Below, piece after piece: positions 250 to 23,409 of a stretch of DNA of 43,512 nucleotides. Positions within the stretch are counted from its first letter, which is position 1; each line of letters opens with the position of its first letter. The DNA is from Eubacteriales bacterium (GTDB lineage Bacteria; Bacillota; Clostridia; Tissierellales; GPF-1). Position numbers and translations under genes: made by a program. Below the pieces are notes generated by a model, which worked only from the letters and a program-made list of their open reading frames with translations, was not told where the DNA came from and did no database searches. The stretch spans positions 1 to 43,512 of the forward strand of contig DAOUQF010000031.1 in the NCBI GenBank assembly GCA_030625815.1, read 5' to 3'.

Positions 250-275
250 AATACACCGGCTTATTAGACGCTTAC
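250..275 (-). repeat. IS66 terminal inverted repeat (right end)
   Basis: Read from 275 leftward on the minus strand this begins GTAAGCGTCTAATAAGCCGG. It lies between the transposase terminator and the interrupted reverse transcriptase. The TAA inside GGTAAGCG supplies the premature stop of the interrupted gene. The partner repeat is outside the window, so the repeat length is estimated from family knowledge. Confidence 0.65.
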
Positions 276-835
276 CGTTCTTGCAAACAACATATCATCC
301 AGTGATGGTCTACATGGTCGAAGAAACCTGAAATATCTGCATCAACCACCCAGTTCACTCGTTTGAAAAGAATAATTTCATTCAATTGTTTGATTGCTCC
401 ATGACAACCTCGATTCGGCCTGAATCCATGTGAAAAATCCAAGAAATCCTGTTCGTAAATTGCGATCAAGATCTTGGATACTGCCAGCTGAACGATTTTA
501 TCCTCGTATGCAGGTATACCCAAGGGTCTCATTTTGCTACTTCCTGTCTTCGGAATTTGAACTCGTCGTACTGGTTGTGGTTTATACTTCCCGAATTTCA
601 AGTTCTGATAAAGTTTCTCAATGTTGCCCCTTGCCTTACTTTCGTACATCTCTTTTGTCACTCGATCAACCCCTGTTGCCTTGCCATTCTTTAATTCATG
701 ATGGCATTCCAACAATAGCTTTTCATCAATCAAGTGAGCCAAGCTTGTGAATTTCTCTTTGGGATTTTCTTTTGCGATTTGTGTTATTCTTGCAAGTTTT
801 GTTGTCAATTTTTCCCCACCTCTGCGTATGGTCAT
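272..835 (-). pseudogene. ltrA: Group II intron reverse transcriptase/maturase, truncated
   Basis: Intron-encoded RT/maturases are usually 400-600 residues; this one stops at 187. Visible RT blocks are KATGVDRVT, RRVQIPKTGSSKMRPLGIP (RT-1/2), DFSHGFRPNRGCH (RT-2a) and VNWVVDADISGFFDHVDH (RT-3, with the first catalytic Asp). The YADD active site, maturase domain X and any endonuclease domain are absent. The natural sequence runs through CLQER and then meets the IS66 end, whose GGTAAGCG gives the stop codon, so the break is an insertion and not a point nonsense mutation. The start is the ATG at 835 directly after intron RNA sequence. The fragment cannot polymerise DNA, and the intron can move only if supplied with a maturase from elsewhere; with its catalytic domains V/VI displaced it is probably dead. 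Confidence 0.85.
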
Positions 836-1302
836 TGTTTCCCTTACAAGAGCTTTTACATGTGACCGCCTTCCCTCCCCGGGAATTACCCCGATTCATC
901 AGTACTATTCAGCCATCCGACTTCCTGCATCTCATCTGCTTTCCTTGCTTGGTTCTCGCTTGTACGGCATACCCGTTTCCAGGAAAATGCAGGATCTCCC
1001 AGGTTCCCGTTGCTTCTTAATTATAACGTGCCAAGTTCTCAGACCCCGGGGCGTCTCAATCAACTCGCCTTAACGCTGATTGAAATGTTGCCTTCTGCAG
1101 GTGTAACAGCATCGGCCGTTCCCAAGTTAATTTTCGAGGCTCAATCACTTCAGCTACCGCTTTCGGCCCGCTACTTTGCCGATCTACGCTTAAAATTTGT
1201 TGTTACCAACAAATCTCCAAGACCTAGCTACACGGCTGTTGGCTAAACTTTACCATGATGGGACTTCCACCCACTAGAAACAACGACCTTGCCTGGCCGC
1301 AC
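276..1302 (-). mobile_element. Group II intron, 5' part, interrupted by IS66
   Basis: The stretch from 836 to about 1302 has no gene. Read on the minus strand it looks like the 5' RNA domains of a bacterial group II intron, followed by the intron-encoded reverse transcriptase. The probable intron start is GTGCG at 1302-1298, matching the GUGYG consensus. Next come GGGTGGAAGTCCC (around 1260-1272) and GAAGTCGGATGGCTGAATAG just before the protein gene, both seen in many bacterial group II introns. Domains V and VI and the 3' end are missing because the IS66 element enters at 275/276. The intron starts about 20 bp downstream of the methyltransferase stop codon. The exact 5' splice site is inferred. 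Confidence 0.65.
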
Positions 1303-1321: not shown

Positions 1322-2557
1322 TCACCAGTCTTCTCTTTCTATGATCTTTCTAACTTCTTTCGCCAATTTAAATGCCATATGAGGTGGTACTGCATTACCG
1401 ATCTGCTTAAAAGCAGTTGTTCTCGATGACTCAAAATAAAAATCATCTGGAAACGTTTGAAGTCTTGCCGCTTCCCTTACGGTAATCGACCTGTTTTGCT
1501 TAATGTCAGGATGAATAAAATAATGACCATCTTTAGATAAGTGAGCTACTACGGTATGCGATTGTCCCTCAGAATCAACAACTTTAAACCGGTCTAAAAA
1601 ACTTTTCTCATTCTTGTGAGTTTTCCATTGCTTCGGTAGCTCATTATACATGAGTCTTCGTCTTTCCTTATTCCAAACATCGACTACCATACGGTAAATA
1701 TTCAGATCTCGTTCTATGTGAGGTCTTGCCACATGTTGTGTAATCACATTGATTTCACTAACTATTCCTAGCCTCTTAAGTGCCGAATTTGGTTTAGCAA
1801 ATGTGAGCTGATTCTCATAAGACATTCCTGCATTTAGCTTTGGTAAACCAAAAAAAACATCATTAACAGTATTCCCATTATCAATCTTTTCAACATCTGG
1901 ATAACGAAAATCACATCCGATTAACCACCCAACAATAATAACACGCTCTCGTGATTGTGGTACTCCAAAATCCTTCGCATTCAAGAGCTTATATTCAACA
2001 TGATATCCAATATCTTCCATGCCTTTTTTTATTACAGGAAAAACTTTCCCGTTTTGAGCGGTGAGTATTCCTTTTACATTTTCAAACAAAAACATCTTAG
2101 GTCGATATTTTTTCAAAAACCTCAAATACCCTTCATAAAGATAATTCCGCTTATCTTTCGCCATACCAAATGGATCCCGCGCTCTTCCAATTAATGAATA
2201 TGCTTGGCAAGGTGGACCTCCAATAAGAATATCAACAGAATCTCCTTGAAGTATCTTATCGATTTTGTTGAAAATCTCACTTTCTTCTTCCTTTTCACCA
2301 ATGGGCTGGTTTATTACTCTATTAAGTAACTCGCTTGGTACGGTTTCATATAATTCATCACGCGAAATTTCATTCAACAAATAATCTTCATATCTATTGA
2401 GGGTTCCATTCTTTTTATGATAATAATAGGCAATCCTAGTTCTTAAAGTCAATGATGCTGACCGATCATTTTCAACGTGAGCAACTACATCAAAACCAGC
2501 CTGTGTGAACCCTTCAGACAATCCGCCAGCACCAGCAAATAAATCAATACACTTCAT
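1322..2557 (-). CDS. drmMII: DNA (cytosine-5) methyltransferase, DISARM DrmMII type
   Basis: A 411-residue C5-cytosine methylase that transfers methyl from S-adenosylmethionine to DNA cytosine. All key motifs are visible: motif I DLFAGAGGLSEGF (5-17) for AdoMet, motif IV GGPPCQAYS with catalytic Cys117, motif VI FENVKG (158-163), motif VIII QSRERVIIVG (201-210) and motif X QIGNAVPPHMA near the C-terminus. The variable stretch before motif X should be the target-recognition domain; the recognised site cannot be read from sequence. It is the last gene of the island, 204 bp after drmB, and has its own promoter. In class 2 DISARM this methylase marks host DNA as self. A stand-alone restriction-type methylase is the alternative, but drmA and drmB beside it argue for DISARM. 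Confidence 0.88.
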   Translation of the reverse strand: MKCIDLFAGAGGLSEGFTQAGFDVVAHVENDRSASLTLRTRIAYYYHKKNGTLNRYEDYLLNEISRDELYETVPSELLNRVINQPIGEKEEESEIFNKIDKILQGDSVDILIGGPPCQAYSLIGRARDPFGMAKDKRNYLYEGYLRFLKKYRPKMFLFENVKGILTAQNGKVFPVIKKGMEDIGYHVEYKLLNAKDFGVPQSRERVIIVGWLIGCDFRYPDVEKIDNGNTVNDVFFGLPKLNAGMSYENQLTFAKPNSALKRLGIVSEINVITQHVARPHIERDLNIYRMVVDVWNKERRRLMYNELPKQWKTHKNEKSFLDRFKVVDSEGQSHTVVAHLSKDGHYFIHPDIKQNRSITVREAARLQTFPDDFYFESSRTTAFKQIGNAVPPHMAFKLAKEVRKIIEREDW

Positions 2558-2761: not shown

Positions 2762-4591
2762 TTACATTTTTTTAAAAAAACCGATAGATTCATCAGTGAT
2801 TGTCCCAATCAACATTCCACGATCAAGCAGTCTATTACCATTCTCACAACAAGTTTCCGGTAAAAGCGCACAATTATGACAAGCAGCCAAATTACAAGAA
2901 TCTGGTCCTTGTCCTTTCGATTCAATACATATTGGATCAGCCGTACACCAGCGCGCATTACTTATTGCTTTCCTCATTGTGTTTTCAATTACATTTGGAA
3001 TACCTTGATTAACCAGTCCACCAAGAGAACCTTCTGAATCCCCTGAAGCCGTATAAATTAACACACCATACATATCATTAGTCAATTCTCCTTTATCGCA
3101 ATATATCCTTTCTCGCAAAGCAGAACTACCATAACCACATTCAAAACTAAGTTGATTAATCAAGATATGAGCAAAAGTATGCAGTAATATATATATAGGA
3201 TTCAATTCAATAGCTTTTCTCGACATTTTGATGTTATACCTGTGATAATTATCATCCAAACGAGCGATTCTATCTTGTACTGATTTTTGTTGCATCCATC
3301 CCATCAGTTTTTCCTTATTGAACTGAAAAAACAAACCTTCGCCATATACTACTATCGCTGGCAACCAAGAAACTTCCTCATTACTTAACATATTCTTCTT
3401 ATCTGTGAAATTGGTACCTGAATCAGGTTGAACCCTCGAAAACCCTAAAAAGGCTCTAGTTTCTCTCAGCTTTTTTACTAAAGTTATACTTTCAAAATAA
3501 TCTTGAATCGCTGAATTATATTTTGAAATTGGAAAATTCACCGTATGAAGGTCAAGATTCTCATTCCCAAATGTTGATATGAGTTTCTTATACTCATCAA
3601 GCCTGAATTCTTCTTCTGTAATTCCAGCTAAATTTTCGCCAAACTCATTCTCCCCATTAATTCTTGACAATAACGTTTTGTATAAATCTTTAGCATCAAC
3701 TTTTTTGACCTCCGCTATAATTTCAATAGTTGATAAATCGATTTCTCCATTCACTCTTGAATCTTCTATTGATTTTTTCAACTTCTCATAGTAGTCATCA
3801 ACAACCTTCACTACTCTTTTATCAACTTCTTGTTCGTAATATGGTATCGTAATAGAACTTCTAATGTCAGGAAACCAAACATTTGACCCACCACGTTGAA
3901 CGACCTTTACACTCTTTCCACATTTTTCATTTTCATACCCCAGCCAAGGTTTTAATCCTTTACACGTATATCCAATATTATCAAGTACTCCCTTTTTCGT
4001 TGCCCCTAACAAACTTGAACTGGCACCACAAGTACAAGTATATCTAACCCCAGCCAACGAAGTTGATATTCCTCCAGTACTTCTTCTTAATTTACAGTCA
4101 GACTTTCTTTTAGGACCATTTCTATGCACCCATTCCATCAATGGAAAATCATCGATATGCCCATCTTCACATATTACTATAAACCGTTCAGGAACCAAAG
4201 TTCTTCTCCTTGACAAAGGTGTCTTATTCGAACAGCTTCTACCCTTTGTCCAAGGATATGCGTCACACTTATCTCGAGAATCCAAATATGGTGGAGCTTT
4301 AATCATAGAACCACAATACGGGCAATAATGCCACAACGGAAACCTGACAGCTGGAATACTTAACAAAGATTTCCCATTGAAATCGGGAGGCAGTCTAAGT
4401 TCTTTAACACCCAATCTTTGTGTTAGTCTCTTGTCGATTACACGGTAGCGTTCAACATCCTCATCATCATAATGCCAGAAATCTAATCCTGCAATCATCA
4501 ATGATTCATCATTAGGGAATGGAACAATCGCACCAATCCCCCAAGGACTAAGTATTTGAGCTCTCCTAATTGGTCTTTTTGAATAAACCAT
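2762..4591 (-). CDS. drmB: DISARM protein DrmB (DUF1998)
   Basis: A 609-residue protein with the hallmarks of the DUF1998 family: N-terminal RRAQILSPWGIGAIVPFP, a CPYCG zinc-ribbon-like pair near residue 91, further Cys pairs (CTCG; CNLAACHNCALLPETCCE close to the C-terminus), and HTFAHILINQLSFECGYGSSALRER-type helices, cut here to HTFAHILINQLSFECG. In DISARM, DrmB forms a complex with the helicase DrmA that grips DNA. The start overlaps the drmA stop by one base (TAATG), so translation is probably coupled and a 1:1 complex is favoured. No ribosome site of its own is evident beyond the coupling. The zinc ligands and complex role are family knowledge; the Cys clusters are seen directly. Confidence 0.85.
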   Translation of the reverse strand: MVYSKRPIRRAQILSPWGIGAIVPFPNDESLMIAGLDFWHYDDEDVERYRVIDKRLTQRLGVKELRLPPDFNGKSLLSIPAVRFPLWHYCPYCGSMIKAPPYLDSRDKCDAYPWTKGRSCSNKTPLSRRRTLVPERFIVICEDGHIDDFPLMEWVHRNGPKRKSDCKLRRSTGGISTSLAGVRYTCTCGASSSLLGATKKGVLDNIGYTCKGLKPWLGYENEKCGKSVKVVQRGGSNVWFPDIRSSITIPYYEQEVDKRVVKVVDDYYEKLKKSIEDSRVNGEIDLSTIEIIAEVKKVDAKDLYKTLLSRINGENEFGENLAGITEEEFRLDEYKKLISTFGNENLDLHTVNFPISKYNSAIQDYFESITLVKKLRETRAFLGFSRVQPDSGTNFTDKKNMLSNEEVSWLPAIVVYGEGLFFQFNKEKLMGWMQQKSVQDRIARLDDNYHRYNIKMSRKAIELNPIYILLHTFAHILINQLSFECGYGSSALRERIYCDKGELTNDMYGVLIYTASGDSEGSLGGLVNQGIPNVIENTMRKAISNARWCTADPICIESKGQGPDSCNLAACHNCALLPETCCENGNRLLDRGMLIGTITDESIGFFKKM

Positions 4592-7500
4592 TATTCGTTC
4601 ACCTCTTTATTTAATATACGAATCTCGCATGCAGCATCTACGTTTCTCATCGATGTAGGCGTGGAAAAACCTACCCGATTCCAATCTTCATTAGGACTCA
4701 TTGAAGATGGGTACATCAATACAGGATCCTCTTGATCCACAAAAGTATGATACTGCTGAGGTAAAAAAGTTTCCCAATGTTTAAACACATAATCAATCAA
4801 TGCTTTTGTACCAGATTTCTCTTCAATCGCGACATTTTCAACCCTATCAAGTATCATTTTATATATTCTCTTCTTAGTCTCTTCATCCGGAAGTTTTCTT
4901 GGATCATCATACGTACTTGCATCACCAAATAATCGTACATACCCAATTATTAATGCATGCATTGCTCGTTCTCTAACCCTTTCAGAAAAAGGAGTAACAC
5001 TCGTTGGTTCTACTTGACTATAAATCTTCATATGATATGCCTTAAATTGCTCATAATGGGATTTATCCCTGGGTTTACCAGGACTATAAGTAACAAAAAC
5101 AAGACCGGGTGCAGTATTGCTTCGACCAACCCTACTGGTTGCCTGTATATATTCCGATGTCGTTTTTGGTTGTCCTACTACTGTCATGAGCCCCAATCGA
5201 GGGATATCCACACCAACTGATACCATATTCGTTGCTAAACAAATATCTACAGGTCTTGGTTTTTCATTTGGATATTTCACACTTAAATTTTCCAAACTCA
5301 TCGGAATTTTCTCATTTGAGATTCTACTTGTCAGCTCTTCAAAACGATAGATATATCTTCGATCAATTTTCTTGCTACTATCTTTTCTTTTATCTCGTTC
5401 AATATATTTGCGACCGTAGATAGTGTGCAAATACTCTTCAATGTCCGCATTTATCCAAGTTGCCGTTTGCCCCAGCTCACGCAAGCTATTGTAATATCCC
5501 AAATTTGTCCAATAAGGATCCCTTTCACTTTCGTCTTTAACACTAATCTCTTTCGCCGCATATAACAGAGTCGCATATAATCTAATGTTGGTCATCGCAA
5601 ACGACGACGAGCCTGGCGCGAATATCCCTACATACTTCCGCCCTTTAGCCTTGTGATCTAGCTTCGCAAAAAACGAATCTCCCGCATTGATACCCATAGG
5701 AGGAAATTGTTTAACATTGTTTTTCCCACAATTATACAATGCATGACATTGATCGCTTGCATTTCTGATAGTAGCTGTTGAAGCAATTATTTTCGGTTTT
5801 ATCATGGAACCATCATCATTATATTTTGTGCACAACTCATCAATCAGTGTTTCATAATGACCTACCATAGTCCCTAGAGGACCCGAAATAAGATGCAATT
5901 CATCTTGGATAATCAGTTCAGGTGGACTCCAATCACAATTTATCCCAAATAATCTTTGTGCCTTTGGAATATAAGGCAACATTGCAAACTTATCTACAGT
6001 CCCTAGTAATAATGTGGGAGGTTCTTCGTAAATCTCTTCGTCAATCACCGTCATTGGTAGAGCATTGTTTTTAACACTGAACTGACAATCCGTATTACTA
6101 CATTGATATACAAAATGTTTTTTTGGAGTATTATTTTTTTTGTATCCTCGTAACGACACTTTTCCTTTAGGATGTTGAAAAACACCCATTTGAGCACCGC
6201 ACCATGGGCATTTTAAAACAATAAAAGGATTCGCAGTTGTTTTACCACACTTTAATTTTTCATATACCTTAACAGCATCTGCCATTTTTTTTGGTGTAGT
6301 TGCATTCCCAACCCATAATCCTATAGTTATTTTTTTATCTCCTAATTTCGAAATTTTTTCTTGCCTTATCATTTCACAAGAACAGATTAATGATGCTGCG
6401 CGTTGATATTGTTGAGTAGTTAATAAGCGCAAGGTATATCTCATTAAAATCGCAGTACCTGCATCCTCTTTATTCTTTAACCGTCTTAAAAATATGGTGT
6501 ATGCACTTAGACCCAAATACGCCTCTGTCTTCCCACCCCCGGTAGGGAACCATATTAAATCAACTAAACTGCGCTCTTCATTTGCAGCATCATTCATCGA
6601 AATCAAGTTCATTAGTATAAAAGCAATTTGAAATGGTCTCCACTTACCATATCTACTCGCATCGCCATACCATGTGCTTTCATCCTCAATATCTGGTAGC
6701 ACATTATACATTTTTATCATTTTCGCATTACTATTCTTTGTATCCCACAATGAAGTTGGCATATTAAAATGTAGTTGCTGCATTAACATAGCACGGTTCA
6801 TATACTGAAATGCAGTTCTAACTTTTTCATCTCTTTCTAGTAATTCTATTCCCTTTTTCATACGATTCATACTCTCTTTGCATAAAGCAATATGGCGTTT
6901 AGCAGACTCCCCATACTGTTTTGGTAAATTCATAGATTCCGTTTCGATTCGTTTTATCCACGATTTATACTCAATAACCAATTTGTTCAATTCGTAAAGT
7001 GCTCTATCAAAATCACCCAAATCACTCATTAATTTCATACTTAAAGAAACACCCTTTATCGCGGTTGGTAGTATCGGTTTCAAATCAAAAGTTGGGATGA
7101 TCTCAGTTCGAATCACAAAAACATTTTCTTCTTCATCTTCCCAATTAGCCGAGCAACCATGTCCAATTGCATAGTTTTTTTCGTTTCGATACAACAATTC
7201 ATTAGATGCATCGTCTTCCGACAAAAACTCTTTTTCAACTGAAGGTATTCTTAAGAAACCACAATTTGACTTAATAGAAAAACCAACTTGAAAAAAACAA
7301 TCCTCATCTAACGCACTCCGCGTTTTCCGTTTCTTATTGATTAATGAAAATGTATAGATATTTTCAACTTTTGTATTTTTCCTATTGATAATAATAAGCT
7401 CTAGCCCTTTATATTTATTACCTTCTCCAGATACTTGATATTTTTTTATCTTCTCAATTTCATCTGGTAATTCTATGAATTCACCGGAGTTGTTCCAGAA

Positions 7501-7971
7501 CATCGGTCGCCGATAATATAGTATGCGTTTTTTCCCTGCATCAGTATATTCTACTTTCCTTTCATATATTGCCGCCTTTACCATTACAGATATTTTATCT
7601 ATATTCTTACATGCCGAAGTTATACTGATTGCAGATTGATTGTACGCATTCGATAGCTTAACCGCTTCCTCAGAATCAGCTAAAATTTCTCCTACACTCG
7701 CATGATTTGTCCCGTTTATTTGGATATCCGACTCCCTTACATCTTTCCCACTTCTCTCAAACCCATCAGTATCTTTCTCATCATCTTTGATTTCTTCATT
7801 TAGGGACTCTCTTGGATAAAGAATTCCTGCTGAGTATTTTATTCTAGGCGATTCAGTAAGAATTTCTTCCCCATTTGGTTGTACATAATTTGGTGAATCA
7901 ATCGGATTGGGCCCAATGATTTCCTTTTTTATAATATCTATGATTTGATCACGAGCACTTAGATCGCTCAT
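4591..7971 (-). CDS. drmA: DISARM helicase DrmA (SF2)
   Basis: A 1126-residue superfamily 2 helicase. A long N-terminal region without ATPase motifs (about 1-440) precedes the motor: Walker A FPTGGGKTEAYLG (475-487), DELH in the DEAH-box position (IIQDELHLISGPLG), motif III ASTATI, and a C-terminal motor half with TNMVSVGVDIPRLGLM and QATSRVGR (the arginine finger). A CPWCGAQ...CQFS pair of cysteines sits between motifs I and II and may bind zinc. This matches DrmA, the core DISARM translocase, which with DrmB senses and processes incoming DNA. Its ATG overlaps the preceding NERD-helicase stop by four bases (ATGA), and its stop overlaps drmB, so three genes are tightly coupled. Length and motif layout fit the family. 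Confidence 0.87.
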   Translation of the reverse strand: MSDLSARDQIIDIIKKEIIGPNPIDSPNYVQPNGEEILTESPRIKYSAGILYPRESLNEEIKDDEKDTDGFERSGKDVRESDIQINGTNHASVGEILADSEEAVKLSNAYNQSAISITSACKNIDKISVMVKAAIYERKVEYTDAGKKRILYYRRPMFWNNSGEFIELPDEIEKIKKYQVSGEGNKYKGLELIIINRKNTKVENIYTFSLINKKRKTRSALDEDCFFQVGFSIKSNCGFLRIPSVEKEFLSEDDASNELLYRNEKNYAIGHGCSANWEDEEENVFVIRTEIIPTFDLKPILPTAIKGVSLSMKLMSDLGDFDRALYELNKLVIEYKSWIKRIETESMNLPKQYGESAKRHIALCKESMNRMKKGIELLERDEKVRTAFQYMNRAMLMQQLHFNMPTSLWDTKNSNAKMIKMYNVLPDIEDESTWYGDASRYGKWRPFQIAFILMNLISMNDAANEERSLVDLIWFPTGGGKTEAYLGLSAYTIFLRRLKNKEDAGTAILMRYTLRLLTTQQYQRAASLICSCEMIRQEKISKLGDKKITIGLWVGNATTPKKMADAVKVYEKLKCGKTTANPFIVLKCPWCGAQMGVFQHPKGKVSLRGYKKNNTPKKHFVYQCSNTDCQFSVKNNALPMTVIDEEIYEEPPTLLLGTVDKFAMLPYIPKAQRLFGINCDWSPPELIIQDELHLISGPLGTMVGHYETLIDELCTKYNDDGSMIKPKIIASTATIRNASDQCHALYNCGKNNVKQFPPMGINAGDSFFAKLDHKAKGRKYVGIFAPGSSSFAMTNIRLYATLLYAAKEISVKDESERDPYWTNLGYYNSLRELGQTATWINADIEEYLHTIYGRKYIERDKRKDSSKKIDRRYIYRFEELTSRISNEKIPMSLENLSVKYPNEKPRPVDICLATNMVSVGVDIPRLGLMTVVGQPKTTSEYIQATSRVGRSNTAPGLVFVTYSPGKPRDKSHYEQFKAYHMKIYSQVEPTSVTPFSERVRERAMHALIIGYVRLFGDASTYDDPRKLPDEETKKRIYKMILDRVENVAIEEKSGTKALIDYVFKHWETFLPQQYHTFVDQEDPVLMYPSSMSPNEDWNRVGFSTPTSMRNVDAACEIRILNKEVNE

Positions 7972-9698
7972 TGAAAAGACCTCCTAATAACACTTTTTCT
8001 TTCCTTATCAGCAGTTTTAGATTCAAAAATATACAATTTTGTTTTCGCTCTACTTAATCCAGTATAAAGCAGTTCTTTATTATTAATCGTTTCCAAATCG
8101 CAAATTATTATCACTGAATTTTCCAACCCTTTAAAAGAATGAACAGTACTAAAGGATATCTCTTTATGATCGCCAATTGAGTATTGTCTAATTTTACATT
8201 TTTTATTGTCTATGCATGATACAATTGATTTTTCATATTTCCTCGGACTTAAAATTGTAATTTTACTTTTTTCTATTTTTTTGACTTTTATTAAGTTTTC
8301 TAAAAGTAATTGAAGCTTTTCCAAATGCTCGTCACTCGATTTATATATCAAATAATCTACAGGGGGGCCATCAATATCATTTAAAAAGCGAAGTTGGTTT
8401 TTAGATTCAGTTAAAAAATTAACTTCCTGTCCAATTTGCCTTGTATTCCTACAGTTCATAGTTAGCTTAAATCTGATAAAAGAAGTCTTCTGATCTAATT
8501 CCTGCAATCCATTTTCGATTTCATCACTTTTGCAATATAATTTCTGCAACTCAAAATCTCCATAGAAAGACCAACGACCTCTATCAATACCATTCGTTAA
8601 CATACTGTCCATTACCGCCAAGTACTCTGGAATCAACAAATCTTGTGCTTCATCAACAATTATTTGATCAAACGAAACATCATTATCTTCAAGTGATTGT
8701 ATAGCATAAATGGGCAACTCATATTTATAAAATTCTGGATCATCAAAATCGAATTCCTCTTGACAAGACTCACGTGCCCTATCCAACATATAAGAATGAA
8801 ATGTCCCAACATATACCGGCTGCATTTCGTCTGGTAAATCCTTAAAATATTCTATTATCCATTTTGCCAATAACTTATTAAAACAAAAGAAAGCAATTCT
8901 TTTCCCATCGACAACTTTCCGTTTTGCCTCCTCTAATGCAATCAATGTTTTCCCAGTACCAGCACGGCCTTGAATTAGTATCCTTGCATTGTCTTCAAGT
9001 TGATCGAGACATCTCAATTGTTCGCTTGTAAAATGATCAATCTTTGATTCTGCAATTCGTATTTTAGTATCAAGTGTAACTGGGAAATCGAAATCAGGAC
9101 GAATTATCCTCGTTAATTCCTTCACTTCCTTTTTTGTCGGAATTTTATTGCTAGGAATCTTCCCATACTTTTCTTCCCATTTATGGATTGAATTGCTTGA
9201 TAAATGTTTGATAAAAGATACAATATCTCCATTATTGTTTTCATCATAAACTTGCCATTGTTCTGAATCCAAATCTTCAATTATATATTCAATATCTGGA
9301 AACATCACTCCATAACCAAATAGTATATTCTTCGCCTCATAACTAACATCATCTATCTTTTGGATTTCTTTTATCAAACTAAAAACACCATCTTTAGCTT
9401 GCTCGAAAGGACCTCGCAATTTACTATTTGACTGCCCATATCTATTTGTGAAATACCACTTCCCCATTTCTCGCCTAACTCTCCCCCCTTTTACCTCTAA
9501 AGCAAAAAGGCCTAATTTAGGCGCGAGAACAACAAAATCAATTTCTCCATAGATTACACGATTATGATTCGATATTCCCAACGAATGAAACACAACCCAA
9601 TTCTCAGTCCCAGGAGAATTTTGGAACAAATCAAATATTTTTCTTTCTGCATTACTTTTAACTTCAGGCGAAAATTGTCTAGGTATCATTTTTGACAT
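7968..9698 (-). CDS. NERD-domain nuclease fused to SF1 (UvrD-like) helicase
   Basis: A 576-residue two-part protein. Residues about 14-130 form a NERD domain, a relative of PD-(D/E)XK nucleases: GEIDFVV (51-57, acidic residues E52/D54) and FALEVKGGRV with the E-x-K pair E68/K70. Then comes an SF1 helicase: Walker A IQGRAGTGKTL (Lys250), DEAQDL, NCRNTRQ, STVHSFKGLE and TGLSRAKTKLYIF. It should therefore bind, unwind and possibly cut DNA. It lies between drmE and drmA with a 0-bp gap on one side and a 4-bp overlap on the other, so it belongs to the operon. The usual DISARM nuclease DrmC (phospholipase-D type, HxK motif) is absent; I infer that this protein takes that place. No HxKx4D motif is present in it. 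Confidence 0.82.
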   Translation of the reverse strand: MSKMIPRQFSPEVKSNAERKIFDLFQNSPGTENWVVFHSLGISNHNRVIYGEIDFVVLAPKLGLFALEVKGGRVRREMGKWYFTNRYGQSNSKLRGPFEQAKDGVFSLIKEIQKIDDVSYEAKNILFGYGVMFPDIEYIIEDLDSEQWQVYDENNNGDIVSFIKHLSSNSIHKWEEKYGKIPSNKIPTKKEVKELTRIIRPDFDFPVTLDTKIRIAESKIDHFTSEQLRCLDQLEDNARILIQGRAGTGKTLIALEEAKRKVVDGKRIAFFCFNKLLAKWIIEYFKDLPDEMQPVYVGTFHSYMLDRARESCQEEFDFDDPEFYKYELPIYAIQSLEDNDVSFDQIIVDEAQDLLIPEYLAVMDSMLTNGIDRGRWSFYGDFELQKLYCKSDEIENGLQELDQKTSFIRFKLTMNCRNTRQIGQEVNFLTESKNQLRFLNDIDGPPVDYLIYKSSDEHLEKLQLLLENLIKVKKIEKSKITILSPRKYEKSIVSCIDNKKCKIRQYSIGDHKEISFSTVHSFKGLENSVIIICDLETINNKELLYTGLSRAKTKLYIFESKTADKERKSVIRRSFQ

Positions 9699-12251
9699 TT
9701 ATCTTCTCCAATCATCCAATAATTTATTTAAGATAGTTTTACTGATCTTTTTTGATTCAAATACTTCCTCTATCAGCAATAGTCTAACCGTCCCAATGTT
9801 TTCAATTTCAAACTCAACTTTCTCATCAAGATCAATATATTCCAAATCGATATCATTTAATACATTTCTCAACTTCACTTTCAGAAGTTTTGTCAATATT
9901 TTACCTGCTTTAATATGGGCTCTTTTAACCTGTTTTCCCGCTTCAAATATTTCCTTTGCCCTTTTCAAACCATAGCTATTTTTCGCTAGTGCCAATATGA
10001 TCTCAACATGTTCCAGCTTTTGTGGAGTAATCATATCTGTATTATTGATCCAATTTCTTACTGTCAGTTTACTTACATGACATCCCATTTCATACAATCG
10101 TTTGTAAACATCAGAAAAAACATTGTCATCCATTTGCACCTTTAAAATCATATGCCACTCACTTGCTTTCTCACGTAACCTGCCCATATCATTTTTATTT
10201 AGAATTTCATCTGCCAAATCTCTCAGTATGTCTTTTGCTGTCTCTCTCATCACAATAAAATCACCGCTATACACATTTTTTGTCTCCTTGTTATTTATTG
10301 AACCATTTTCATTAAACAGTTCATTAATAACAATCATTTTGTGCGTTTCTTTAAAAAAGCCATAACTGTCATCATGAAATTTTATTGGAATCGCATCAAC
10401 ACTTTCTTCATCATTTTCGTTATTATAATCAGATCTAGCATATTTACTAAAAATATATTCGCCTATGTAATCATCAAAATCCCCAAAACTACTATTTTCA
10501 ACTTCAGTATTTACTGGAGTATTTATATTTTTAGTATTTGATATTCCAGTTATATCACTCAACAGAATATCGTTATTATTTTGAATTTCATGTCTAGTCC
10601 ATTGATACTCATGAGCTTTACGCCACTTATCCTCAATCTCATATAGTAATATAATAAGCTCGGAAGAATTATAAGCATTGATGATGCTTCTCATCTTTTT
10701 TTCACCAAACCATCCTGTTATAATAACTAAATCATAGAAATTGTTTTTCTCAGCAAGAAATTCTTTGTAATTCATGATATTAACACTGTAGAATTTTTTT
10801 ATATTAATCCGTTTCAAAAGATACTCTTCTGCTTCATAACAAAACTTACTTTTTTTCATTACAATGCATACTTTCTTCCTAGAAATATTCAATAAATACT
10901 CTTCGAGTTTCAACATTTTATCAATTATTGATTTTCTCGAGTACAAATCAGCAATCGCTTCAAAAGCATTTCTAAATGAATCATTTTGTGATTCAGAAAG
11001 TAATAACTGATATTGAATAACCATTTCATAATAGTATTCTAACGATTTCTTTACCGTTACAATCTCTTTAAAATTAATTGGCGAAACTTTATTCAAAAAC
11101 TCATACGTTTTTTTATAGAGAAACGAATATACTTCAACAAGTTTCCCTGTATACTCATCTAAATATCGATTTAGATAAAACAACTCTTTTAAAGCAGTCT
11201 CCAGCGAATTGTTTTGGCACTGTATATAGTGCTCTACTCTATTAACATAATTGTCCTGTATCTCATGTAGTGCTCTCTCTTCCTTATTCTGAAACAAACT
11301 TAGTGTTAATTGCTTATTCCATTCCCATACAGGAAACTCACGCATTTCCAATTGTTCCAAATATGGTGTCATTTCCATACCACATAGACATAGAATTTCA
11401 ATGTTGAAATTCAATATTTCATCGAACGCATCGAGTTCACTTTGAAATTTATTCAAATTATAAATTGGTAAAATCACTTTATTAATTTCGAGACCAGTTT
11501 CAATCGCTTCGATCGCCGAATACAAACTCGTCGATATGATTATTTCCGGCTTACCTTCAAGTTTCCCTTTCGTTACACTAATTATTTTTCCAGATTTATC
11601 TAATCGTGAGACATAGAATAACTCTGTGAGTTCATAGCCATTCATCTTGTTTTTTTGAAAAAATTCTATTAATTCGTTTTGAGAGGCGATAATACATATT
11701 GTTTCATGTGTATGTGTTCTCAAATTTTTCAATTTCATAACTAGCTGATCTTCACTATGTTGACGACGTTCTTTTTCTTGTTTTTTAAATTCTTTATAAA
11801 ATTTTTCATACTTCGATAATTTTTTTTTCGTACTTGTATGTTGAAAGACTGGTGCCAAATCAATTGGAACCCCATACATCATACCGTTCGCATTTTCAAT
11901 CCATATCAATTCTTTTCCCGACTTATTTTTTTCAATTCTATCGAATCTAGCTACAGAATTCCCGCATTTTAACAAATCATCTTTTTTGAATTTTGTTGGG
12001 TCATATTCTTTCGAAAACTCATTTGAATCAATTCTATATATTATGTGAAAAAGTAGAAATAAATTAGTATATTGCTTTAATTCAGGAAACACAATCAGCA
12101 AATTATTTTTATTTCTTTCAATAATTGATGTGCTTATGTATAAAATTTTTGGAAATTTTTTACTACTTTGTGAACTGTTGCTAAACATCAAATCATCAAA
12201 TTTTATATATTTACTCAATTCCTCTTCAATATATTCTTCCCACGTTTTCAT
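9699..12251 (-). CDS. drmE: DrmE-like protein of class 2 DISARM
   Basis: An 850-residue protein with no catalytic motif I can name. It sits first among the effector genes next to drmA/drmB, which is the position of DrmE in class 2 DISARM; its size also fits. Residues about 460-570 alternate hydrophobic strands and helices (KVCIVMKKSKF, YDLVIITGWFGEKKM, SELIILLYEIE) in a way that recalls the second RecA-like half of a helicase without its motifs; this is inference. The C-terminal 200 residues are helical with SKLTVRNWINN. The start at 12251 is chosen because AGGGAGG lies just upstream; the longer reading from 12287 has no ribosome site. The stop (TAA) is followed at once by the next ATG. Identity as DrmE rests mainly on context. 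Confidence 0.6.
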   Translation of the reverse strand: MKTWEEYIEEELSKYIKFDDLMFSNSSQSSKKFPKILYISTSIIERNKNNLLIVFPELKQYTNLFLLFHIIYRIDSNEFSKEYDPTKFKKDDLLKCGNSVARFDRIEKNKSGKELIWIENANGMMYGVPIDLAPVFQHTSTKKKLSKYEKFYKEFKKQEKERRQHSEDQLVMKLKNLRTHTHETICIIASQNELIEFFQKNKMNGYELTELFYVSRLDKSGKIISVTKGKLEGKPEIIISTSLYSAIEAIETGLEINKVILPIYNLNKFQSELDAFDEILNFNIEILCLCGMEMTPYLEQLEMREFPVWEWNKQLTLSLFQNKEERALHEIQDNYVNRVEHYIQCQNNSLETALKELFYLNRYLDEYTGKLVEVYSFLYKKTYEFLNKVSPINFKEIVTVKKSLEYYYEMVIQYQLLLSESQNDSFRNAFEAIADLYSRKSIIDKMLKLEEYLLNISRKKVCIVMKKSKFCYEAEEYLLKRINIKKFYSVNIMNYKEFLAEKNNFYDLVIITGWFGEKKMRSIINAYNSSELIILLYEIEDKWRKAHEYQWTRHEIQNNNDILLSDITGISNTKNINTPVNTEVENSSFGDFDDYIGEYIFSKYARSDYNNENDEESVDAIPIKFHDDSYGFFKETHKMIVINELFNENGSINNKETKNVYSGDFIVMRETAKDILRDLADEILNKNDMGRLREKASEWHMILKVQMDDNVFSDVYKRLYEMGCHVSKLTVRNWINNTDMITPQKLEHVEIILALAKNSYGLKRAKEIFEAGKQVKRAHIKAGKILTKLLKVKLRNVLNDIDLEYIDLDEKVEFEIENIGTVRLLLIEEVFESKKISKTILNKLLDDWRR

Positions 12252-12311
12252 CAAACCCTCCCTACAAATAAACTGATAAATCCCCATAAGTCAATAACAA
12301 TATAGAGTATT

Positions 12312-12334: not shown

Positions 12335-12754
12335 TCACGATTTATTTCTTATATTATTCACAATTTCATCTACGACACCTTGAAAATCTTTTTTCAACTC
12401 ACATTCCCAAATCTCATATACCGTAAATCCTAACTTCTCAAGTTTACGCTTAACAATTTGATCTCGTTTTCTATTCGTATCAATTTTTTTCAACCAAAAG
12501 TCTGTATTTGATTTAGGTGTGCATGCATATTTACAGCTCTCATGACCATGCCAAAAACAACCATGAATAAAAATAACCGTTTTGTATTTCGGTAAGACAA
12601 TATCTGGTTTTCCAGGATATCTAGTGTCATTTTTTCTAAATCTAAAACCTTTCTTATGAAGATAACTTCTTACCATAACTTCATACATAGTATCCTTTGA
12701 TTTGATTTTAGACATAATTTCACTTCTTTTTTCTGGAGAAAACTTATCCGACAT
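12335..12754 (-). CDS. vsr: Very short patch repair (Vsr) endonuclease
   Basis: A 139-residue Vsr-type endonuclease, which nicks 5' of the T in T:G mismatches left by deamination of 5-methylcytosine. It shows MSDKFSPEKRSEIMSKIKSK at the N-terminus, YPGKPDIVLP with Asp51, and IFIHGCFWHGH with His64 and His69; these numbers match the known E. coli Vsr active-site positions, and Cys66, Cys74 and others could form the zinc site. The start at 12754 has AAAGGAG 7 bp upstream (12762-12768); a TTG start at 12778 would add eight residues that overlap that ribosome site. It is the first gene of the leftward island and pairs logically with the C5 methylase at the other end. Confidence 0.9.
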   Translation of the reverse strand: MSDKFSPEKRSEIMSKIKSKDTMYEVMVRSYLHKKGFRFRKNDTRYPGKPDIVLPKYKTVIFIHGCFWHGHESCKYACTPKSNTDFWLKKIDTNRKRDQIVKRKLEKLGFTVYEIWECELKKDFQGVVDEIVNNIRNKS

Positions 12755-13004
12755 AGCCAAACTCCTTTTGTTTTTCAAAAACTAACTCAGTACTCATAAA
12801 ATTTGAAAATCATTTCGGAAATTCCATCCATTTCTATTTTATCATGTTTTGAGTTCAATGTACGAATACGAGTTATCTCACCAAAGTAATATAACCCTTG
12901 CTAAACATTTGCTGTTAATCCCATTCCACTAATAAACATAAATAGCAAAAAAGAACCACAACTGATGTCATGGCCCCTCACATAATTATACTATACTAAA
13001 TTTC

Positions 13005-21834: not shown

Positions 21835-23409
21835 TCACTCAAGTACGTAAACCATAATATCCGCTTCTTCGAGCCGTTCCATTAGTTCGAAATTGGCATC
21901 ATAGGTTTGTGCATCAATCCAAAGCATTTTAAACTTTTCATGCAGCTCTTCCAATACTTCGATATTTTGAATCATGGTGTTTTCGATTCCCAATCCGATC
22001 AAGCGCTCAAATTCCTTTGCTACAGAAATATCTCGAATTTGATTCTCTCCAAGGTAAAGCCATTGCAATTCCGTTAATGAAGACAACTCATTGATATTGG
22101 TTACTTGATTGTGTTGAATATTCAGCCGCGTCAATTGTTTCAAATCCGCCAATACTCCGATATCATTGATCTGATTGCTTGCTATAACGATTCCTTCCAA
22201 GGATTCAAGCTTCCCAAGGGCTCTGATATTATGAATTTTGTTGTTCGACAAGTTCACATATTTTAACTTATTCATTTTTCCCAAAGATGTAATATCAATG
22301 ATTTCATTGCTTTCCAGATTCAATTCCGTCACCCGCTCCAAGTGTTCAAGCACTCCAATATCACGAATTGCATTGTAATCCAAGATCAGCACTCTGACAC
22401 TTTCAAGATTCTCAAGATCCGCAATACTGCTGATCCGATTTCCGCCTAAATCCAAAAATGTGAGTTTCGTCAAATTCGCGATCGGATCGATTTCTTGAAT
22501 CGATTGACCCGCTACAATCAATTCCTTCAGATTCTTTGCATACTCCAACCCATCTAGGGTTTCAATCACTCCGTCAATTTCAATAAGTCCATTCTCCGCC
22601 ATTCTTCGGTTCGCTTCTGTCAATAACGCCTCTTCGATGCGTCCGTTTTCATCCGGCGATATTACCTTTAAAGAGGTCAATTCCCATAAATCAGCTTCTG
22701 ATAATTGCCCCGACACCGCGTATCCCTGATCGGACAGGGTTGTTCGAATCGCCTCTTCAAGAATCGGATCTTGCAACTCGATCATATGTTGTCTCGCCGC
22801 CTCATACTCTTTATCAGACGGTGTTCCGCCAAAATCAAATCGCGACATGATGAACCAGATAATCAAAATAAAAACCAATGGGATCGCAAGCATAGCCAAA
22901 ATCGCAGTGTATGTTTTCCGTTTATAATTCGACCCTTCCGTTTCCGGCTTATTCTTCAATTCATCAATGCTCGCCTGCACCTTTTCAACGGCAATCTCTT
23001 GATCGCCTTTCTTTGTTTCGAGATATTCACTGATTTTATGCGCAGTCTCCCAAGGTTCCACTTCTTTTCTCTTCATGCTGAACCATCGCTTATCCGACAG
23101 ATAATACCCTAAACTTCCTGTCGGTTTTGTATCATCCAGTCGAGCAATCAGTATTTCCAATTCACTCTGTGTCGCCAATTCAACTTCTCGGATCACTTGA
23201 CCTGATTTGTTCGAATCCGCAGACATGACAACAAGCAGTACCTTCGCCATTGAAATCATACCGGCAATCTCCATGGCGAATCCTTCATCCAATTTTGTTA
23301 CACGGGGCGCAATCCTAGCTTGCACGCCTTCTGCAATCAATTGATTGCAAAGCGTTACTGCCAATTCTCTATCCTCCCGCGCGTATGAAACCACTACATC
23401 ATAGATCAT
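21835..23409 (-). CDS. TIR domain - transmembrane - leucine-rich-repeat protein
   Basis: A 524-residue membrane protein. Residues 1 to about 125 form a TIR domain: YDVVVSYAREDRELA, then MSADSNKSGQVIREVELA, where the REVE glutamates are candidates for the NADase acid, and LDDTKPTGSLGYYLSDKRW. A KRK patch (163-165) precedes one membrane helix (166-188, IPLVFILIIWFIM), which by the positive-inside rule puts TIR in the cytoplasm. Outside would lie a 95-residue linker and about nine 22-residue internalin-like repeats (about 285-490) of the form LxxLxxLxLxxNxIxDI. GAAGGAG precedes the ATG. I infer a receptor with an outer LRR sensor and an inner TIR effector. Signalling scaffold without NADase activity is an alternative. 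Confidence 0.85.
   Translation of the reverse strand: MIYDVVVSYAREDRELAVTLCNQLIAEGVQARIAPRVTKLDEGFAMEIAGMISMAKVLLVVMSADSNKSGQVIREVELATQSELEILIARLDDTKPTGSLGYYLSDKRWFSMKRKEVEPWETAHKISEYLETKKGDQEIAVEKVQASIDELKNKPETEGSNYKRKTYTAILAMLAIPLVFILIIWFIMSRFDFGGTPSDKEYEAARQHMIELQDPILEEAIRTTLSDQGYAVSGQLSEADLWELTSLKVISPDENGRIEEALLTEANRRMAENGLIEIDGVIETLDGLEYAKNLKELIVAGQSIQEIDPIANLTKLTFLDLGGNRISSIADLENLESVRVLILDYNAIRDIGVLEHLERVTELNLESNEIIDITSLGKMNKLKYVNLSNNKIHNIRALGKLESLEGIVIASNQINDIGVLADLKQLTRLNIQHNQVTNINELSSLTELQWLYLGENQIRDISVAKEFERLIGLGIENTMIQNIEVLEELHEKFKMLWIDAQTYDANFELMERLEEADIMVYVLE

Follow-up and report, generated by a model that had tools for sequence, protein, structure and literature searches.

A NERD–SF1 nuclease-helicase gene in a DISARM operon without DrmC, a candidate effector of a DrmC-free branch

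DISARM (defence island system associated with restriction–modification) operons are typically followed by drmC, according to the available text of a preprint on YprA-family helicases (PMC12458937), and the PADLOC rule for type II requires DrmC together with DrmA, DrmB, DrmE and DrmMII, as given in the available part of its description (PMC9252829). For the Serratia system, the available sections of the corresponding paper propose that autoinhibition of DrmAB is released by unmodified 5'-overhang DNA and report that DrmC does not co-purify with DrmAB; the nuclease step is called a mystery, and borrowed host PLD nucleases are proposed for it (PMC9142583). The manner in which DISARM destroys phage DNA is an open question, to which an operon-encoded nuclease-helicase candidate would bring a named gene and single-residue mutants. 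Here, we describe such a gene at positions 7968–9698 (minus strand) of a 43,512-base stretch of DNA (the window hereafter), which is the entire contig DAOUQF010000031.1 of an Eubacteriales genome (GCA_030625815.1; 3.2 Mb in 58 contigs). The gene encodes a NERD domain fused to a superfamily 1 (SF1) helicase and lies within a DISARM operon in which no DrmC was detected. On balance, we regard it as probable that the NERD-helicase is an operon member and the nuclease-helicase effector of a DrmC-less branch of DISARM, most likely supplying the nuclease. This reading draws on how tightly the operon is packed, on active-site residues that are intact, on the repeated occurrence of the gene beside drmA and drmB (DrmAB) across several phyla and on the finding that these loci lack DrmC.

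The open reading frame (ORF) starts with ATG, encodes 576 residues without an internal stop and is the only copy of the gene in the genome (E 0.001). The first-pass annotation, made from the letters of the window, had described both halves as complete, and every element that it named is present: E52, D54 and E68-x-K70 in the NERD half, accompanied by Q100, and the SF1 motifs from GRAGTGKT (residues 244–251), through DEAQD (349–353), NCRNT (415–419) and FKGLE (522–526), to TGLSRAKTK (546–554) in the helicase half. The arrangement of E52, D54 and E68-x-K70 is that of a PD-(D/E)xK-type active site. The helicase half has the fold of the UvrD/Rep-type SF1 helicases together with their Walker A, Walker B and motif VI residues; Pfam UvrD_C_2 matches it with 33.5 bits against a cut-off of 27.4. 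The NERD profile PF08378 matches 11 of the 12 members of a first family alignment (best E 2.4e-14); the window protein, the twelfth, is not matched at E 0.01. In a larger alignment of 34 sequences, the window protein included, members are 23–34% identical to the window protein, and none of the 34 departs from E52, D54, E68, K70 or Q100, or from G244 and K250 in the helicase half. The N-terminal domain is 20–34% identical to that of the window protein across the 33 relatives. The five nuclease residues are retained in all 47 DrmAB-linked copies, and each is present in at least 58 of the 59 copies found away from DrmAB. A chance ORF or a broken gene is ruled out by the intact frame and by the residues that are invariant across the 34-sequence alignment.

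The AlphaFold2 model of the whole protein is confident (mean predicted local distance difference test score, pLDDT, of 88.6), as is a model of residues 1–218 (pLDDT 87.2). The modelled helicase half superposes on UvrD in complex with DNA with a Z score of 31.1 (root-mean-square deviation, r.m.s.d., of 3.0 over 343 residues). For the NERD half, VIA-align gives middling Z scores with the nucleases Can2 (8.0), McrBC (6.8), EndoMS (6.4) and Card1 (6.3). Nucleases of the Can2, McrBC and EndoMS types share the PD-(D/E)xK fold. Foldseek with the NERD half alone returned nothing below E 0.001, and a sequence search of this half against solved structures returned no match at E 1.

The minus-strand gene order at the locus is vsr, drmE-family, NERD-helicase, drmA, drmB and drmMII (Table 1). 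The TAA stop codon of the drmE-family gene directly abuts the ATG of the NERD-helicase (0 nucleotides), the NERD-helicase stop and drmA start overlap by four nucleotides (ATGA) and a single nucleotide is shared by drmA and drmB. With a DrmAB core and a methyltransferase in one operon, the locus is a DISARM in the wide sense; DrmB has a single match in the genome. At E 0.01, the equivalog NF038323 (DISARM_DrmE) does not match the DrmE-family protein, and no profile of PADLOC does so either. It is uncertain whether the Vsr gene belongs to the system. Three other DISARM loci (L005, L010 and L012) likewise have a vsr gene no further than about 10 kb from the NERD-helicase. Elsewhere in the window lies a gene whose product has a TIR domain at its N terminus as well as leucine-rich repeats.

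Table 1. Features of the window
Feature	Position	Strand	Size and layout	Evidence
NERD-SF1 nuclease-helicase	7968..9698	-	576 aa; NERD ~1-215, helicase ~216-576	ORF, Pfam/PADLOC, conserved residues, AlphaFold2, fold matches
Vsr-type mismatch endonuclease	12335..12778	-	147 aa, first gene of run	PF03852 E 4e-34, TIGR00632 E 6e-42
DrmE-family protein	9699..12287	-	862 aa	NF038316 DrmE_fam 323.4 bits (cut-off 80), Pfam DrmE_C 38.5 bits (cut-off 27)
DrmA, YprA-type SF2 helicase	4591..7971	-	1126 aa	NF038325 953.1 bits (cut-off 950), PADLOC DrmA E 1e-233
DrmB, DUF1998/MrfA Zn-binding protein	2762..4591	-	609 aa	NF038324 446.8 bits (cut-off 240)
DrmMII, C5-cytosine methyltransferase	1322..2557	-	411 aa	PADLOC DrmMII E 2e-162, PF00145 E 8e-70
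Group II intron start	1034-1267	-	directly after drmMII	Rfam match
Group II intron maturase fragment	272-835	-	187 aa, at contig end	
TIR-domain and leucine-rich-repeat protein	21835-23409	-	524 aa	

No DrmC was found in the window operon with Pfam, PADLOC or locus-derived profiles, the contig ending about 1.3 kb past drmMII, and a four-sequence DrmC profile found nothing in the genome at E 0.01. As a control, the same profile recovered the drmB-adjacent DrmC in seven of seven held-out DrmC genomes. Applied to three other genomes with a NERD-bearing DISARM (G177, G266 and G068), it found nothing beside the operon and, for G177, nothing anywhere in the genome. The DrmC calls of our script agree with PADLOC in both cases checked.

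To place this observation, DISARM loci were collected through DrmA (E 1e-30) in the phylum of the window (18 of 398 genomes) and through DrmB (E 1e-40) in the phyla of Microtetraspora (24 of 376), Bradyrhizobium (11 of 388), Calothrix (17 of 194) and Thermoanaerobaculia (7 of 199), giving DrmA or DrmB in 77 of 1555 sampled genomes, centre genomes included. Among 14 control genomes, Deinobacterium chartae was matched in every search and Haloferax volcanii also in the DrmA search. Of the 78 stretches fetched, two lacked drmA or drmB (L137 and L184); with the window, 77 loci hold both genes, of which 67 were kept (2.5 kb upstream and 1.5 kb downstream) and ten were dropped for short flanks. Nearly all of the 67 were drawn independently of NERD, and four genomes (G414, G478, G1242 and G1601) contribute more than one locus. 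The DrmB loci of G455, G456 and G460, which had been chosen through NERD, were left out, as were partial places in G1391 and G1272 and, in G211, a duplicate contig. L188, the DrmB locus of G458, was kept; G458 is a centre genome to which a NERD locus at another place in it had also led. The script profiles for DrmC, DrmE and NERD were derived from these same loci.

In 16 of the 67 loci, the window being one of them, a same-strand NERD-helicase is found no more than 3 kb away, and DrmC is present in 30; no locus has both and 21 have neither (Fisher p 1.7e-5). NERD loci occur in all five samples, with one locus each from the Calothrix and Thermoanaerobaculia phyla. In L161, which entered this tally as having the NERD-helicase downstream, the gene sits upstream of drmA. 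A C5 methyltransferase gene lies within 6 kb in 11 of the 16 NERD loci, compared with four of the 30 DrmC loci and two of the 21 others. A DrmE-family gene is present in 12 of the 67 loci, in nine of which the order is drmE–NERD–drmA–drmB. The DrmE equivalog NF038323 exceeded its cut-off in none of 299 genomes, its one sub-threshold match falling in G177, a NERD locus. In seven plasmid records with a DrmA homologue (picked by eye from the 60 listed of 74 such records, in addition to those reached through NERD), no NERD-helicase is annotated beside drmA or drmB, and L212 alone has an annotated drmC. The association of the NERD-helicase with DrmC-less loci was absent from the first-pass annotation.

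The history behind this pattern was examined in a DrmA tree of 112 rows in which both samples were pooled (a quick tree with a single support value and a midpoint root). One starred branch separates 46 rows (31 with DrmC, 14 with neither gene and one with NERD), which include every DrmC row, from 66 rows with no DrmC, 44 NERD labels and 22 with neither. Of these 44 labels, 43 are clear and one is doubtful (L206, where the label comes from a weak 50-bit match and the gene carries the annotation of a pentapeptide repeat protein). The other 44 of the 45 NERD labels in the tree comprise 38 adjacent on the same strand, five on the same strand within 3 kb and one on the opposite strand (L055). The sole NERD-helicase locus among the DrmC-bearing DrmAs, L084 from Spirochaetaceae, is itself without DrmC. 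Many independent swaps of DrmC for NERD were considered and are not supported by independent pairs; one deep DrmA split explains most of the pattern. What we regard as a sound claim from these sequences is that DISARM has a DrmC-free branch and that the NERD-helicase is the nuclease candidate most often seen there in this collection.

On the DrmC-free side, 13 loci (L161, L163, L164, L166, L178, L203–L205, L025, L030, L031, L033 and L034) carry after drmB an SF1 helicase of 367–505 residues without a NERD half, in the place that DrmC occupies in the other branch. Other operons of this side without a NERD-helicase carry either such a helicase or none that the profiles used detect.

Near kin of the NERD-helicase are rare: a relative was found in two of 59 other genomes from genus to order (E 1e-10). 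A single-sequence pattern scan gave seven pattern matches in genome contigs, none of them a relative, and no match in viral contigs; tblastn returned one phage record and 33 plasmid records. The surroundings were inspected for ten of the 33, one of which carries no annotation there. In five of the ten the NERD-helicase directly adjoins DrmA or DrmB homologues (Rhodococcus, Azospirillum, Rhizobium twice and Deinococcus), and in a Burkholderia record the neighbouring DrmB homologue is on the opposite strand with fragmented DrmA homologues beyond it. From a profile scan in which each species was represented by one genome, the best 80 loci were taken, and 77 of them entered the tree described below. 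Among these best loci, 24 of the 77 entries lie within 4 kb of DrmA or DrmB, or 19 of the 43 with both flanks of at least 4.5 kb, fractions that are not population frequencies, as the query alignment leaned to DISARM-linked copies. In successive groups by match rank, proximity to DrmAB is seen in 16 of 19, 3 of 20, 2 of 19 and 3 of 19.

The NERD-helicase tree contains 106 rows (L019, a copy of L134 omitted from both trees, and L068 and L077 being excluded) and, like the DrmA tree, is a quick tree with a single support value and a midpoint root. In it, 47 copies lie within 4 kb of DrmA or DrmB, 41 of them directly adjacent. The group of the window has 38 rows, 34 of which are by DrmAB in several phyla; the exceptions are L020, L036 and L095, together with L038, which sits at the edge of its contig. 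Outside this group, links to DrmAB reappear at separate positions, and on the whole tree the starred branches force at least seven gains or losses of the link. The other 59 copies (four on short contigs) mostly have no assigned known defence partner. Three of the copies away from DrmAB lie directly after genes of known defence types: a helicase of the DruE1 type in L013, one of the DruE3 type in L072 and a gene of the TmtA type in L008, TmtA denoting the Tiamat system. In BLAST clustering, the genes upstream in L007 and L080 group with the upstream genes of L013 and L072, and in L095 a type IV restriction gene is near. This neighbourhood analysis, which the first-pass annotation had named as a check, together with the full-length match to the PADLOC entry RTasNERD-Hel (E 1e-50), supports its suggestion of a module that appears in several defence operons beyond DISARM. 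A well supported group of 19 actinobacterial rows (for example L057, L061, L059, L079 and L090) is stand-alone; up to four genes away, no neighbour family recurs in as many as three of its loci. The group thus does not resemble a fixed housekeeping locus, though a defence role for it would be conjectural.

Two layouts are common beside DrmAB: drmE–NERD–drmA–drmB, and a UvrD/GajB-like helicase followed by drmA, drmB and NERD. The second is found in L006, L009, L012, L134 and L157, in which no DrmE-family gene was detected by the profile used. For copies next to drmA, the nearest in-frame drmA start is within nine nucleotides of the NERD-helicase stop in 21 of 23, a count that the choice of the nearest start inclines towards small gaps.

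The mobility seen in the tree favours the best of the alternatives, namely that the NERD-helicase is an accessory anti-phage gene that often lands in DISARM operons and, without being required by DrmAB, provides a second, perhaps suicidal, layer. The seven or more changes of the DrmAB link and the copies that stand alone, beside genes of the DruE or TmtA types or in the vicinity of a type IV restriction gene would all be expected of such a gene, and NERD domains in BREX (bacteriophage exclusion) and Dnd systems have been interpreted as backup effectors in the available text of two papers (PMC12839542, PMC10853773). Against this stand the 34 of 38 copies of the window's clade that keep to within 4 kb of DrmAB across several phyla and, with the bias noted above, the spacing to drmA in 21 of 23 copies, which is the position of an operon member and not of an edge gene. 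We consider the accessory role unlikely, if still the strongest competitor to an integral nuclease-helicase effector.

A loading or remodelling role, in which the helicase half serves DrmAB by clearing or extending single-stranded DNA while the NERD half binds DNA and its cutting is incidental, has in its favour the SF1 helicases without NERD that related operons hold in neighbouring places (446 residues in L166 and 396 in L025). It fits poorly with the five nuclease residues being invariant in 47 of 47 copies within a domain that is only 20–34% identical across 33 relatives, since some of these would probably have been lost if the domain were not catalytic, and we judge it improbable. An ordinary repair or housekeeping helicase lying beside DISARM by chance is very improbable indeed: the 59 of 106 rows away from DrmAB, including the compact actinobacterial group of 19, could be read in this way, yet DrmA or DrmB is present in only 77 of 1555 genomes while lying by 19 of 43 NERD-helicase loci with adequate flanks (subject to the lean of the query), relatives are found in only two of 59 related genomes and the idea is already contradicted for close kin. 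The first-pass annotation had held that homologues occurring mainly as housekeeping genes outside defence islands would refute its module; this does not apply to close kin, of which 16 of the 19 best-ranked are by DrmAB, and the 59 rows away from DrmAB weigh against the claim for the wider family.

How the NERD-helicase might act as an effector can be outlined from the Serratia model, in which DrmAB loads on unmodified 5'-overhang DNA and opens the DNA (PMC9142583, available sections). The SF1 half would then load on the single strand exposed by DrmAB and translocate along it, and the PD-(D/E)xK NERD half would nick or cut the DNA that is passed. UvrD translocates 3' to 5', and translocation here would probably have the same direction. 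The 5-methylcytosine (5mC) introduced by DrmMII would mark self DNA and so spare the host, and the DrmE-family protein could, as a guess, be a sensor or adaptor.

Several observations weigh against the NERD-helicase as the nuclease of this branch. Over 14 independent pairs on starred branches of the DrmA tree, DrmC differed in 0.8 on average, and the mutual exclusion of NERD and DrmC is, as far as this tree goes, essentially that of one deep DrmA split and not of repeated swaps. The 22 rows without a NERD label on the DrmC-free side indicate that the branch can do without the NERD-helicase. In G266 the DrmC profile has PLD-type matches on other contigs (best E 9.4e-8, in a 501-residue frame) and in G068 a marginal one elsewhere (E 0.004), and a PLD nuclease may be borrowed in these genomes. 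At the window, the sequence stops within a group II intron some 1.3 kb beyond drmMII, and a downstream gene may be lost. Finally, DrmC is dispensable and often missing according to the available text on the Serratia system (PMC9142583), and a nuclease may thus not be needed at all.

A further comparison arose from the fold searches. With the whole NERD-helicase model, the best Foldseek match is SLFN11 (E 1.7e-16), and VIA-align pairs model residues 1–561 with SLFN11 residues 404–899 in the same domain order, at an r.m.s.d. of 13.3; the helicase half probably drives most of this score. When the NERD half is compared by itself, the top of the VIA-align ranking is taken by seven chains of the linker of human SLFN12, SLFN14, SLFN5 and SLFN11 (Z scores of 8.3–9.1, r.m.s.d. 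of 3.2–3.9); Can2 comes next, with a score that counts as tied with the lower of these Schlafen rows. A VIA-align Z score of about 8 can reflect a common arrangement, and Foldseek with this half lists no Schlafen among the best 50 matches. The kinship between the NERD half and the Schlafen linker is offered as a lead that depends on a modest, aligner-dependent match of models. The human Schlafens (SLFN11, SLFN14, SLFN5 and SLFN12) resemble the NERD-helicase in having linker and helicase in the same order, and differ in their 7–12% identity and in an extra N-terminal RNase domain. The available text of the SLFN5, SLFN11 and SLFN14 papers describes a linker domain between the RNase core and the helicase, of mixed alpha/beta topology and unknown function in the SLFN5 paper, and does not mention a nuclease kinship; a literature search for Schlafen with NERD and helicase returned, in the text available, discussion of Schlafen-family RNases only. 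If the link is true, the SLFN linker domain gains an origin. More broadly, and only tentatively, two deep DISARM branches could be envisaged that use different nucleases, the PLD protein DrmC in one and the NERD-SF1 protein (often with a DrmE-family protein and 5mC methyltransferases) in the other, with the NERD-SF1 protein exchangeable in Druantia and TmtA-type loci and the nuclease-helicase pair inherited by animal Schlafens, where the nuclease half would have become the 'linker'.

Among described helicases, UvrD, PcrA, HelD and GajB match the helicase half of the window protein in sequence-profile searches; GajB of Gabija, UvrD, PcrA, Rep and HelD differ from it in having no NERD domain. 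GajB, moreover, works with GajA. RTasNERD-Hel shares the two-domain architecture and is listed by PADLOC under DRT (defence-associated reverse transcriptases); it differs in being filed with reverse-transcriptase systems, and the only reverse transcriptase found beside the window operon is the maturase fragment at the contig end. C3a187, a PADLOC candidate combining NERD and UvrD, has the same architecture and is a weaker match (E 8.6e-23).

Within the literature searched, a DrmC-less DISARM with a NERD-SF1 protein was not found in print: full-text searches for DISARM combined with the NERD domain, helicase or drmE returned nothing relevant (supplements not covered), nor did searches for NERD with reverse transcriptases, helicase and defence. 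In the available main text of the YprA-helicase preprint, NERD is mentioned twice, with TALON among the contexts, and DrmE is absent (PMC12458937). TALON, as described there, resembles the window operon in placing a NERD nuclease beside a YprA-family helicase, and differs in its ARMADA-like helicase accompanied by TPR-CSD and TBP genes, largely in Chloroflexota (PMC12458937); the window operon has the DrmA and DrmB of DISARM, and its NERD domain is fused to an SF1 helicase. With type II DISARM, as set by the PADLOC definition and not by direct comparison with a textbook operon, the window operon shares DrmA, DrmB, a DrmE-family protein and DrmMII. It differs in that no DrmC was found, in carrying the NERD-SF1 gene between drmE and drmA and in a DrmE that fits NF038316 and not NF038323, and the NERD-helicase could serve as an annotation marker for DISARM operons of this kind, which DrmC-requiring rules would not file as type II.

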